Assembly (NCBI RefSeq): GCF_018137965.1
Contig: NZ_CP073100.1
Span: forward strand, 4,785,754-4,849,753
Direction: 5' to 3'
DNA length: 64,000 bases
Source of the DNA: Luteolibacter ambystomatis
GTDB taxonomy: Bacteria; Verrucomicrobiota; Verrucomicrobiia; Verrucomicrobiales; Akkermansiaceae
Shown: positions 39,938-43,304 of the stretch, in pieces
How the letters are laid out: every line of letters starts with the position of its first letter
How positions within the stretch are numbered: position 1 is the stretch's first letter
Program-made: the position numbers and the translations under genes
Notes under the pieces: generated by a model
What the model was told of the DNA's origin: nothing
Database searches by the model: none
Seen by the model: only the letters and a program-made list of their open reading frames with translations

Positions 39938-40064
39938 TCGGTTTCGGCCGAAAAGACAGAGGGCGGAAAATAAAATGTGAGATCGCGGGCGGGGAGGCAC
40001 ACCCCGGGGAGTGGACGTGCTCATCGTCCCCGATTGCTTCTCTCACCATCCTCCCCGGGAAACC

Positions 40065-40805
40065 ATGACGTCCTGCCCTCTCGTTGCTTCGTGCCTTTTC
40101 GCCGCCGCCTCCATTGCCCAAGGAGCGGTGGTTCTCAACAACGGCAATTTCGAAAACACCGGCGGCACCTTCCCGACCGGGTGGACCACGCAAACCGGCT
40201 TCGGCACGCCCACCGCCACCACAGGGCTTGTTGTGGGAAGCACCACCGCCGCCAATCTCTCCGGTGGCAGTGGCACGACCAATCAATCCATCTACCAGGA
40301 TTTCGCCCCGACCACCGCGGACTCTCCCGCGAATTTCCAGTTGGATCTCGCCTTCCGTATTTCCGCGGAGGCCCAGACCGCGCGCATCCGCTTCCGAGGC
40401 AACAACAACGCCACCGATATCATGGCGATCCGGTTCACCGCCACCAACACCGGCACCACTGATTCCGTGGACGTGTACAACGGGGCCTTTGTCACTGGTG
40501 TGAGCGGCATCACCATCACCGCGGGAGCGACCAATTTTCTCCGCATCACCGGTAGCAATTTCGGAACCGCGTCCGCGACCTATACCATCGGGTTTTCCAC
40601 GGATGGCGTGAACTACGTGACGGGAGCCGCCTCCACCGCGTTCTTTTCCGGGAACCGCGCCGTGCCCATCGAGACGCTGGTGTTCGAGGGGGGCACCACC
40701 GCGGGCACCAGTTTCCGGGTGGACAATGTGTCACTCATCCCTGAGCCATCCATCGTGGGGTTGGGAGGGCTCGGGATGCTGCTCGTGCTGCGCCGCCGCC
40801 GTTGA
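40065..40805 (+). CDS. PEP-CTERM sorting-signal secreted protein (copy 1 of 3)
   Basis: A 246-residue exported protein. Residues 1-20 are a signal peptide, and the body is Thr/Asn/Gly/Ser-rich beta structure (NNGNFENTGGTFPTGWT at the start, of the kind seen in carbohydrate-binding-like sheets). The C-terminus is a full PEP-CTERM signal: IPEPSIVG, a hydrophobic stretch, then RRRR. Exosortase would recognise it and the protein would be exported to the surface or extracellular polymer. It is flanked on both sides by the structured repeat. The start at 40065 is the first ATG giving a signal peptide. Confidence 0.9.
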   Translation: MTSCPLVASCLFAAASIAQGAVVLNNGNFENTGGTFPTGWTTQTGFGTPTATTGLVVGSTTAANLSGGSGTTNQSIYQDFAPTTADSPANFQLDLAFRISAEAQTARIRFRGNNNATDIMAIRFTATNTGTTDSVDVYNGAFVTGVSGITITAGATNFLRITGSNFGTASATYTIGFSTDGVNYVTGAASTAFFSGNRAVPIETLVFEGGTTAGTSFRVDNVSLIPEPSIVGLGGLGMLLVLRRRR

Positions 40806-40811
40806 ATCCGG

Positions 40812-40980
40812 GTACAAAAGGAGAGCCGGGCGATTTTCTTGATCTTCACTCCTTCCTTCAAACCTGAGTTCGGAATTCGTGTTTTTACAGACCAGTTCGT
40901 CCGGCTCTTGGAAAGACAGTCGCGCGGGAATGACTCCGCGCAACTGGTTTTCAGAAACTATTCCGCTGTTCAGCGGAGCA
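40812..40980. repeat. Structured direct repeat, copy B (3' of the PEP-CTERM gene)
   Basis: About 169 bases aligning with copy A. AGAGCCGGGCGA (40822-40833) pairs with TCGTCCGGCTCT (40897-40908); relative to copy A, T-A has become C-G, a compensatory change that keeps the stem. It begins six bases after the PEP-CTERM stop codon. Its last bases form a hairpin (TCCGCT-GTTC-AGCGGA) that covers the leuA stop codon on the other strand; copy A keeps a degenerate version of this end. Confidence 0.75.
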
Positions 40981-42652
40981 GGTTCCATGCGCTGACCAGC
41001 GCCTTCAGGCCGGCCATCTCGATGGAGGGATCGACTCCGCAGCCCCAGACGATGCGGCCGTCATCGTGCTGCACCTGGACATAGGCGGCGGCATTCGCGT
41101 CCGATCCGCCACGCACGGCGTGGGAACGGTAGTCGGTCACCTTGAAGTCCTTCAGACCGATGCTTTCCAATGCGTGTACGAAGGCGTTGATCGGGCCGTT
41201 GCCGGTGCCCTTGATCTGCTTTTCATCGCCATCCAGGCGCACGGTGGCCTTGCACTCCACATTGCCGCGCGTCTCGGTGTGGTGACCCAGTTCGTAGTCC
41301 ACGACCGTCAGCGGTGAGGTGAGGTTGGTGAAGCGCAGATAGAAGGCATCGCGGATCTCGTCCGGGGTCAGCTCGCGGCCCAGTTGATCGGCCAGATCAT
41401 AGACATACTTGCCGACCTGCGGGTGCATGGCCTTCGGCAGATCCAGGCCATGCTCGCGGTCGAGGATGTAGGCGATGCCGCCTTTCCCGGACTGCGAGTT
41501 GATACGGATGATCGCCTCGTAGGAGCGACCGATGTCCTGCGGATCGATGGTCAGATACGGAACGCCCCACGGCACCGCGGGATCGATGGCGGTTTCCTTT
41601 TCACGACGGTCCAGGCCCTTCTTGATCGCGTCCTGGTGGGAACCGGAGAAGGCGGTGAAGACCAGCTCACCCGCATACGGCTGGCGTTCGGAGACGATCA
41701 TCTTGGTGATGCGCTCGTACACCGCGCGGATCGCAGGCAGGTCGGAGAAATCCAAACCGGTCTCGATGCCGTGGCCGTTCATGTTCAGCGCCACGTTCAC
41801 GATGTCCAGATTGCCGGTGCGCTCGCCATTGCCGAAGAGCGTGCCTTCCACGCGGTCCGCGCCGGCCATCAGGCCCAGCTCGGTGGCGGCGGTGCCGGTG
41901 CCGCGGTCATTGTGGGTGTGCAGCGAGACGATGACCGAATCGCGGCGGTCCAGATGACGGATCATCCACTCGATCATGTCTGCATGGATGTTCGGCGTGG
42001 TCCACTGGACGGTGTCCGGCAGGTTCACGATCATCTTCTTCTCCGGCGTCGGTTGCCAGACACCGATGACCGCGTTGCAGATCTCCGCGGCGAAATCGAG
42101 TTCGGTGTCCGAGAACGATTCCGGCGAGTATTGCAGGATCACCTCGGTCTGCGGAATGGTGGGCACCAGCTCCTTGACCAGCTTCGCACCATCGACCGCC
42201 AGCTTCTTGATGTCCTCGCGCGAGGCATCGCTGAAGGTCACGCGGCGTTGCAGCGGCGAGGTCGAGTTGTAGATGTGGACGATCGCGCGCTTCGCTCCGG
42301 CGATGGCTTCGAAGGAACGGCGGATCAGGTGCTCACGGGTCTGTACCAGGATCTGGATGGTCACATCCTCCGGGATGCGGTCCTCCTCGATCAGGCGGCG
42401 CAGGAAATTGAACTCGGTGTCCGCGGCGGACGGAAAGCCGACCTCGATCTGCTTGAAGCCGATCCGGCACAGCAGGTCGAAGAACTCGAGCTTCTCCTCG
42501 ACCGACATCGGCTGGGGCAGCGCCTGGTTTCCGTCGCGGAGGTCGACGGAACACCAGATCGGGGCCTTGGTGATGGTTTGGTCCGGCCAGGTGCGGTCAG
42601 GCAGCCGGACGGGCGGGAAAGGTCGGTATTTGGAAATCGCGGTGGAATTCAT
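40970..42652 (-). CDS. leuA: 2-isopropylmalate synthase (long LeuA form)
   Basis: A 560-residue enzyme condensing acetyl-CoA and 2-oxoisovalerate, the first committed step of leucine synthesis. The HMGL-like TIM barrel (about residues 25-310) contains IWCSVDLRDGNQALPQPM, the HxHNDRG metal site in SLHTHNDRGTGTAATE, and GNGERTGNLD. The C-terminal LeuA dimer/allosteric domain (about 430-555) would bind leucine. The start at 42652 gives the conserved YRPFPPVRLPDRTWPD N-terminus. A leucine-rich leader peptide and alternative hairpins precede it, indicating attenuation. No other leu gene is next to it. Confidence 0.95.
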   Translation of the reverse strand: MNSTAISKYRPFPPVRLPDRTWPDQTITKAPIWCSVDLRDGNQALPQPMSVEEKLEFFDLLCRIGFKQIEVGFPSAADTEFNFLRRLIEEDRIPEDVTIQILVQTREHLIRRSFEAIAGAKRAIVHIYNSTSPLQRRVTFSDASREDIKKLAVDGAKLVKELVPTIPQTEVILQYSPESFSDTELDFAAEICNAVIGVWQPTPEKKMIVNLPDTVQWTTPNIHADMIEWMIRHLDRRDSVIVSLHTHNDRGTGTAATELGLMAGADRVEGTLFGNGERTGNLDIVNVALNMNGHGIETGLDFSDLPAIRAVYERITKMIVSERQPYAGELVFTAFSGSHQDAIKKGLDRREKETAIDPAVPWGVPYLTIDPQDIGRSYEAIIRINSQSGKGGIAYILDREHGLDLPKAMHPQVGKYVYDLADQLGRELTPDEIRDAFYLRFTNLTSPLTVVDYELGHHTETRGNVECKATVRLDGDEKQIKGTGNGPINAFVHALESIGLKDFKVTDYRSHAVRGGSDANAAAYVQVQHDDGRIVWGCGVDPSIEMAGLKALVSAWNLLR

Positions 42653-42680
42653 GGAAAAATGGAAAGCGGGAAAGTAGTTG

Positions 42681-42783
42681 GTTCGTGCCGGGTGGCGGAA
42701 ACAAGATCCGGCCCGCGAACAAATGCGGGACAACGGATGACCGAAGATAGTAAGAGGGTAAAGTTCAGCGGGAGGCCAACCCT
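42681..42783 (-). promoter_or_regulatory. Candidate leucine attenuator: alternative hairpins between leader peptide and leuA
   Basis: Three pairings are visible. AGGGT/ACCCT (42755-42759 with 42779-42783) covers the end of the leader coding region. CCCGC/GCGGG (42712-42716 with 42725-42729) forms a compact hairpin. A longer one joins GTTCG and GCCGG (42681-42685, 42687-42691) to CCGGC and CGAAC (42708-42712, 42716-42720). The last two share 42712-42720 and exclude each other. No T-run follows either, so the control could act through Rho or through access to the leuA start rather than an intrinsic terminator. Confidence 0.55.
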
Positions 42784-42830
42784 AGAAGGAGGTGGCCGAG
42801 CAGAAGGAGCTCGCTGGACTTGATGGTCAC
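42765..42830 (-). CDS. leuA leader peptide (21 aa, 8 leucines)
   Basis: A short open frame upstream of leuA on the same strand: GTG, then MTIKSSELLLLGHLLLGLASR and a TGA stop. Eight of 21 residues are leucine, in runs of four and three plus one, using CTC, CTT, CTG, CTA and TTG codons. Consecutive regulatory codons followed by alternative hairpins are the hallmark of amino-acid biosynthetic attenuators: leucine shortage would stall the ribosome in the runs. A TTGACA -35 is placed so that transcription would start at the GTG itself, so the leader is probably leaderless. The name leuL would fit by analogy, but the function has not been shown. Confidence 0.72.
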   Translation of the reverse strand: MTIKSSELLLLGHLLLGLASR

Positions 42831-42836
42831 GGCGGG

Positions 42837-42865
42837 AAGTTGGGAGATCGGACCGGGGCTGTCAA
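42837..42865 (-). promoter_or_regulatory. Candidate promoter of the leuA leader
   Basis: On the minus strand a perfect TTGACA (42865-42860), 17 bases, CAACTT (42842-42837), then six bases to the GTG of the leader peptide. The -35 is consensus; the -10 is weak. Confidence 0.6.
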
Positions 42866-42941
42866 GCCACCCCCGCCAGGATTCTCAGCGCCACTGTCGC
42901 TCCGAACTTGATCGGAATCTTCCTGCCCCTACGCTCCCCGC

Positions 42942-43304
42942 GTGTTCCAGATCGTCTTCAACGAAATCAGCGCGGCTGAAATTTCCCAGCTCGGCACGCT
43001 CGAACAGCTCGAATTGCTCGATGAGTTCAAGGTTTCCGAAAAGGATCTGGAGAATCTCGATGGCGACCGCTTCGGCAAGATCGAGCGCGATGGCAAGACG
43101 CTCTACCGCTTCCGTTCGAAGGACTACCGCTTTTATTTCATCGTGAAGGATGGCTCGGTCATCGTCCATCGCGTCCTGCACAAGGGCACGTTGTCCGATT
43201 TCCTGTTCCGCTCGAAAATGCCCGTCGGCGAGGACGAGGAACTGGCGAAATCCAAGCACTTCTGGAAGCTCATCGACGAGGGCCGCAATGCGAAGCGGGT
43301 CTGA
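42942..43304 (+). CDS. RelE-like small protein without a partner antitoxin
   Basis: A 120-residue protein starting with GTG. FGKIERDGKTLYRFRSKDYRFYFIVKDGSVIVHRVLHKGTL has the order of strands and basic residues of the RelE/ParE toxin fold. A longer N-terminal helix (SAAEISQLGTLEQLELLDEF) and a C-terminal tail (KHFWKLIDEGRNAKR) extend it. No antitoxin gene is adjacent on either side: the neighbours are the leuA leader (divergent) and a TPR protein. It may be a domesticated member with a housekeeping role. Function not shown; the fold assignment is by eye. Confidence 0.65.
   Translation: MFQIVFNEISAAEISQLGTLEQLELLDEFKVSEKDLENLDGDRFGKIERDGKTLYRFRSKDYRFYFIVKDGSVIVHRVLHKGTLSDFLFRSKMPVGEDEELAKSKHFWKLIDEGRNAKRV

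Follow-up and report, generated by a model that had tools for sequence, protein, structure and literature searches.

The DNA upstream of leuA in Luteolibacter ambystomatis raises the question of whether a short leucine-rich open reading frame, predicted to begin at the very 5' end of its transcript, regulates leuA in response to leucine. We analyzed a 64,000-nt stretch (assembly GCF_018137965.1, contig NZ_CP073100.1, positions 4,785,754-4,849,753, forward strand), hereafter the window, whose features are collected in Table 1. A preliminary description had placed a 21-codon minus-strand frame with eight leucines between a TTGACA element and leuA, and rereading recovered the frame, its leucine runs, and its stop (GTG ACC ATC AAG TCC AGC GAG CTC CTT CTG CTC GGC CAC CTC CTT CTA GGG TTG GCC TCC CGC TGA). 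Leucines occupy codons 8-11, 14-16, and 18, and codons 8-11 are the likely first sites of ribosome stalling. In the leu, trp, and his attenuators of Proteobacteria, the leader ORF is enriched in the regulated amino acid and a hairpin precedes the structural gene; the position of the short Leu-rich ORF between promoter and leuA is the one that leu-type attenuators require. The identity of leuA is supported by the match of its product to NCBIfam TIGR00970 (E 9.4e-221). A frame at 40011..40805 (+) is convergent with leuA and ends in what we take to be a PEP-CTERM-like tail.

Table 1. Features of the leuA leader region, in window positions.
Feature	Position	Strand	Remarks
-35 element TTGACA	42865..42860	minus	read from sequence
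-10 element CAACTT, weak	42842..42837	minus	17 nt after -35; 6 nt to GTG
Leader ORF	42830..42765	minus	GTG start, MTIKSSELLLLGHLLLGLASR, TGA stop; 21 codons, 8 Leu
Leu codons 8-11 (CTC CTT CTG CTC)	42798..42809	minus	read from sequence
Leu codons 14-16 (CTC CTT CTA) and 18 (TTG)	42777..42791	minus	read from sequence
Leader self-hairpin GGCCACCTCC..GGGTTGGCC	42774..42797	minus	would be attenuator regions 1:2
Frozen block CTAGGGTTGGCCTCCCGC plus T of stop	42767..42785	minus	conserved beyond its coding
Terminator-like hairpin ATCCGTTGTCCCGC..GCGGGCCGGAT (ATCCG..CGGAT)	42706..42738	minus	-13.9 kcal/mol, z -3.0
Imperfect U-rich tail CTTGTTTCCGCC	42694..42705	minus	read with hairpin fold
leuA, 2-isopropylmalate synthase	40970..42652	minus	ATG 42652, 560 aa

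Mononucleotide shuffling of the 230-nt upstream region never reproduced the leucine share of 8/21 in 2000 trials and reached a share of 0.30 in 24 of 2000. On both strands of the window, 7 of 1110 overlapping 230-nt stretches reach 0.30 leucine and 2 reach 0.38; these two, both on the minus strand, are taken to be those that cover the leader. Random 260-nt stretches from 80 related loci (960 in total) contained a frame with at least 30% leucine in 3 cases and at least 25% in 25.

Following the suggestion in the preliminary description to look for short Leu-rich frames before leuA in related Verrucomicrobiota, we found them in the same genus and in another family. Judged by its leuA, this genome lies close to Luteolibacter and Haloferula (Akkermansiaceae), with Luteolibacter marinus, Haloferula rosea, and Haloferula sp. 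BvORR071 as high-ranking named records among the best 80 of 182 loci. A scripted screen of these 80 loci, 75 of which have at least 200 nt of upstream DNA, returned 29 upstream frames with at least 25% leucine, which on reading yielded 17 leaders like that of the window (type A) and 12 of a second type (type B, MNSTTRSTLLPLSALLLGRVLLG-like; L107 included, L090 excluded). The L090 frame sits in repeats by reading and was judged to be a chance occurrence. An earlier search of 25 same-genus loci with upstream DNA, several of them on the same contigs as loci among the best 80 of 182, found the leader in six (L003, L004, L006, L007, L009, and L024); the other 19 lack it, L013 having a Leu-poor frame and the rest none that was seen.

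A covariance model built from the 17 type A leaders, with 3 base pairs and so in effect a sequence model, matched 21 of 73 genus genomes, once per genome and each time directly before leuA (best 50 candidates scored per genome, with strict filters); nine of these matches are training sequences. The 12 others comprise nine Leu-rich frames, one locus lacking Leu codons (L128), and two relics of the 3' part (L130 and L131). With 12 candidates scored in each genome, 31 of 288 genomes across the order were matched. One further genus of the same family accounts for 12, and the leader stands before leuA in all 10 of those 12 that were read, four being training sequences. Of six weak matches examined in other families, five are located before leuA: four have frames of at least 29% leucine (e.g., MISAFNALLGLSLLLLGVATR) and one, G039, has 24%. 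The contig of the sixth (L161) stops short of any leuA start. The type B model matched 35 of the 288 order genomes, 27 of them at E < 1e-6; among 20 loci taken, 11 of which are training sequences, 19 matches lie before leuA and one locus was too short to tell. In family f4, where 57 of 59 genomes have leuA, 27 of the best 30 leuA loci have an upstream frame with at least 28% leucine (e.g., VTLPAQALLLLPLRLTLG), a cut chosen after the list was seen. A frame at L212, only 48 nt before leuA, was not counted as a leader.

No comparable leader was found at eight ilvB loci, where the one weak candidate was an ILV-rich frame in L136, or before trpE of the same genome in a limited screen. Among five trpE loci, Trp-containing frames occur in L142 and L144; all overlap the open trpE frame by coordinates, the screen having covered a few hundred bases before a profile match that starts inside the gene.

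The leader is conserved as a coding sequence at the same gene. The 28 type A leaders (26 distinct peptides) have GTG or ATG starts at the same position and mostly end in LLLGLA(S/T/A)R. Single-base codon differences were synonymous in 83 of 142 cases in subgroup A1 (8 sequences; 0.300 expected), 38 of 85 in subgroup A2 (6 sequences, 20 codons; 0.305 expected), and 200 of 503 in type B (12 sequences; 0.305 expected), counts that were taken over sequence pairs and are therefore not independent. Of all residues, 33-36% are leucine in both type A and type B. The window and L123 encode an identical peptide and share identical leader DNA plus 14 nt more, with differences in places farther out on both sides.

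A leuA tree of 76 rows, built by a quick method, shows that many rows of the sister clade lack the leader. All 9 rows of the window's clade (support 94) carry it, against 9 of 45 in the sister clade (36 without), and type B occurs in 12 of the 13 rows of its own clade; these counts alone do not separate gain from loss. We read the absences and relics as secondary losses because no row of the leuA clade that contains the window is without the leader. The preliminary description had counted against a leader any relatives that keep the bases and not the Leu codons or the frame; such a pattern was found in part, at L054/L128 and at L040 and L043-L046. In L040 and L043-L046 the 5' part of the leader is gone and a C/T-rich 3' tail before leuA is retained. 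L130 and L131 are relics too, without the 5' part of the leader and with the C/T-rich tail before leuA. L054 and L128 are the same locus, present in two collections; its bases are kept and so is an open frame of normal length, but this frame is shifted, so the Leu codons are absent. The shift may be genuine, or the metagenome bin may be misassembled here.

Bacterial transcription usually starts about 7 nt 3' of the -10 element, so the 5' end of the window transcript should lie at the GTG or within 1-2 nt of it. The start codon is GTG in 25 and ATG in 3 of the 28 type A leaders. A -35-like T[TCG]GAC motif was present in 27 of the 28, and a -10-like [TC]ANNNT hexamer ending 6-9 nt before the start in 25, with none found at such spacing in the remaining 3. 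The step into the start codon is from C to G in 21 of 28, and a single leader has a Shine-Dalgarno-like string before its start. This promoter spacing and the scarcity of Shine-Dalgarno-like strings are what a leaderless start would predict. A sigma-70 promoter scan of the window called nothing at the site of the leader promoter. The distance from the end of the hexamer to the ATG is 9-14 nt in type B, whose transcripts would carry a few untranslated bases. About 10% of transcription start sites in Akkermansia muciniphila are reported as leaderless (PMC4782308), and a 5' ATG or GTG is described as sufficient for leaderless translation in mycobacteria (PMC4633059).

The preliminary description had proposed alternative hairpins. 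A self-fold of the leader and a strong downstream hairpin do exist; folding of the window gives no mutual exclusion between the two. A hairpin lies 3' of the stop in all 28 type A leaders, with energy below the mononucleotide-shuffled mean in each (mean z -3.2, range -1.3 to -7.8, 12 shuffles each), the weakest being that of L074 (-4.8 kcal/mol). Its sequence varies between subgroups with the stem retained, and differs by one base between the window and L123. RNAalifold on 17 type A leaders found no covarying consensus structure (3 pairs without covariation), and Rfam, including T-boxes and known leu leaders, gave no matches up to E 5 in 42300..43300 and none at gathering score in six related loci. 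Type B leaders have a hairpin whose loop contains the stop codon (CTCGGC-TGATC-GCCGAG, CCGGGC-TGATCT-GCCCGG, CCAGGC-TGATCT-GCCTGG). All six pairs are formed in 10 of 13 loci (best offset picked per locus) and pair changes on both sides are present, while L104, L107, and L108 break one or two pairs. This covarying hairpin was seen in type B leaders L071-L110 and also in L028.

Folding with a stalled ribosome modeled a clear, classical textbook switch at L094, which has a canonical terminator (GAGCCCGCC..GGCGGGCTTTTTC): the terminator stands at 0.91 in the free RNA, at 0.05-0.13 for a ribosome whose A-site is on Leu codons 8 and 12-14, and at 0.88 and 0.91 with the ribosome further on at Leu 15 and at the stop. 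Pairing of GUUCGCGGG with the leader end and stop (CCCGC-U-GAAC) is possible in the window but loses to the full hairpin, and the full terminator stayed at 0.75-0.94 at every ribosome position tested, so that folding gives no antiterminator. A switch seen with the inner stem alone (0.99 free, 0.04-0.08 at codons 6-8, 0.04-0.09 at codons 15-16, and 0.99 at the stop, but 0.84-0.98 at codons 9-11) vanished with the full hairpin. A first test of 18 loci, in which the stalled state was 0.66 vs 0.75 with shuffled leaders (0/40), was superseded by synonymous re-coding; in 27 leaders (L074 left out), switching was no better than in the re-coded controls (3/25 and 8/25 control sets as low). Several leaders other than L094 switched partially; terminator minima near zero occurred in L094, L037, L048, L006, L119, and L124-L126, among which only those of L094, L037, and L048 were reached by at most 1 of 25 controls. 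Any antiterminator in the window's leader would have to be inferred by analogy; we claim none, because the switch vanished with the full hairpin and re-coding gave no significant difference.

The 3' end of the leader is conserved beyond its coding. In 26 type A leaders (L074 and L094, with diverged 3' ends, are left out), the last codons are CTA in 24, GGG in 26, and NTG in 26, then GCC in 25, NCC in 26, and CG[CT] in 26. As background, the shares of these codons in 15 leuA genes from that group are 1.9% of leucine codons for CTA, 10% of glycine codons for GGG, and 61% of alanine codons for GCC. Alignment of 19 family f4 loci (2 of genus g43 and all 17 read from g8) shows the frame ending at a TAG inside the block (AGGG TAG GCGGCCCG); the block is near-invariant past this stop, and leader and spacer vary. 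Because the block stays near-invariant where a stop codon falls inside it, its conservation points to selection on RNA or DNA, beyond the peptide alone. A loose block pattern, devised after the block had been seen, occurs in 27 of 30 f4 loci and 0 of 9 f3 loci, and a second block, CTNCGACT, occurs in 32 of the 39 f4 and f3 loci. In the family f3 leaders L226-L232, CTNCGACT (Leu-Arg-Leu) lies about 140-180 nt before leuA; in L168/L169 it runs directly into terminator-like hairpins with T-runs. The frozen block lies about 45-68 nt from the predicted transcript start, and our guess is that it may be a pause or binding site for RNA polymerase. We tentatively raise the possibility, which we consider doubtful, that leuA leaders of at least two families of the order have an RNA element in common, CTAGGGNNGGCNNCCC (preceded in most f4 loci by CTKCGACT), on which selection acts as RNA and not through the peptide. 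Such an element could serve as a signal for RNA polymerase to pause, or as a protein or ribosome site, holding the polymerase until a leaderless 70S ribosome loads. If this is true, a conserved signal, beyond pair-switching alone, would couple leucine supply to leuA.

We consider it probable that this locus attenuates leuA in response to leucine by way of a leader ORF that is itself leaderless. Transcription would begin at or next to the leader GTG, and a ribosome would load on the bare 5' end by leaderless initiation and trail RNA polymerase. With ample leucyl-tRNA, the ribosome would reach the stop, the downstream hairpin would form, and transcription would end before leuA; with leucine short, the ribosome would stall at Leu codons 8-11, and the freed leader RNA would disturb the hairpin so that leuA is transcribed. 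The actual transcript start, termination at the hairpin, and the leucine response are what we infer here. The leucine-dependent attenuation proposed in the preliminary description gains from the conserved Leu-rich frame, its fixed start, the synonymous excess, the link to leuA, the promoter spacing, and the terminator-like hairpin; its weak point is that folding of the window yields no antiterminator.

Many relatives lack the leader, as might be expected of a functionless chance frame in the spacer. The excess of synonymous changes, model matches found only before leuA, the downstream hairpins, the shuffle test, the Leu-rich frames in another family, and the codon bias of the 3' block all speak against a chance frame, which we regard as extremely improbable and, in our view, refuted by conservation already. 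The same leader might instead act through Rho, or on the mRNA or its translation, and not through an intrinsic terminator; once translation ends at the stop, Rho (or S1/70S) would load onto the C/T-rich, G-poor stretch beyond it. Across 28 leaders, the 30 nt that follow the stop are indeed 39% C, 39% T, and 12% G, the U-tracts are imperfect, and the C/T-rich tail is the part that the leader-less loci L040 and L043-L046 retain. Hairpins below the shuffled mean after all 28 leaders and canonical terminators in L094 and, by reading, in L168/L169 run counter to control by Rho or translation, and we judge it rather unlikely.

The 3' block might also work as an RNA element on its own, as a tertiary motif or as a site for pausing or for a protein, in the way proposed for the actinobacterial LEU element, with the Leu codons of minor importance. 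The near-fixed GGG, CTA, and GCC codons, set against their background frequencies, and the passage of the block beyond the TAG stop in family f4 would fit such an element, and changes of Leu codons in actinobacteria are cited as without influence on regulation (PMC1262725). Leucine is nevertheless held at its high share in types A and B though the codons upstream of the block vary between species, and we take a stand-alone element to be distinctly unlikely. A leucine-responsive attenuator remains our preferred reading.

The closest known system is the leaderless LeuL before leuA in Streptomyces lividans. LeuL1 is likewise a short Leu-rich peptide before leuA, reported as leaderless by RNA-seq there; unlike the window's leader, it comes from another phylum, has 15 residues (MRFGLLLLSCRGEGL), and is described without a typical terminator (PMC8079986). 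The actinobacterial LEU element resembles the window in its leader peptide with a Leu run and in RNA conserved beyond the codons, and is described as a pseudoknot in which Leu codons and the Shine-Dalgarno box of leuA pair to form the base stem (PMC1262725). Reading found no purine-rich box before the ATG of the window's leuA (CTTTCCATTTTTCC), so the window's leader is not a LEU element by its Shine-Dalgarno pairing. It differs from the leu, trp, and his attenuators of Proteobacteria in its predicted leaderless start and in the lack of an antiterminator by folding. Leaderless polycysteine ORFs of mycobacteria are similar as short ORFs rich in the amino acid made downstream, and differ in the amino acid, in the phylum, and in a role called speculative in 2015 (PMC4633059). 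No report of a leucine leader in Verrucomicrobiota appeared among the titles and abstract openings listed, drawn from a collection with few subscription papers; one Akkermansia paper among them, searched by terms, mentions only ermB.

Through the leaders described here, the control of leuA by amino-acid leader peptides would extend to an order of Verrucomicrobiota. They would also provide a natural series of leaders predicted to start without a 5' untranslated region. Such a series lets one ask how, in an attenuator, leaderless ribosomes match the pace of RNA polymerase. The frozen 3' block hints at an additional RNA signal, a hint that can be tested, and the apparent losses inside one genus offer ready-made comparisons.
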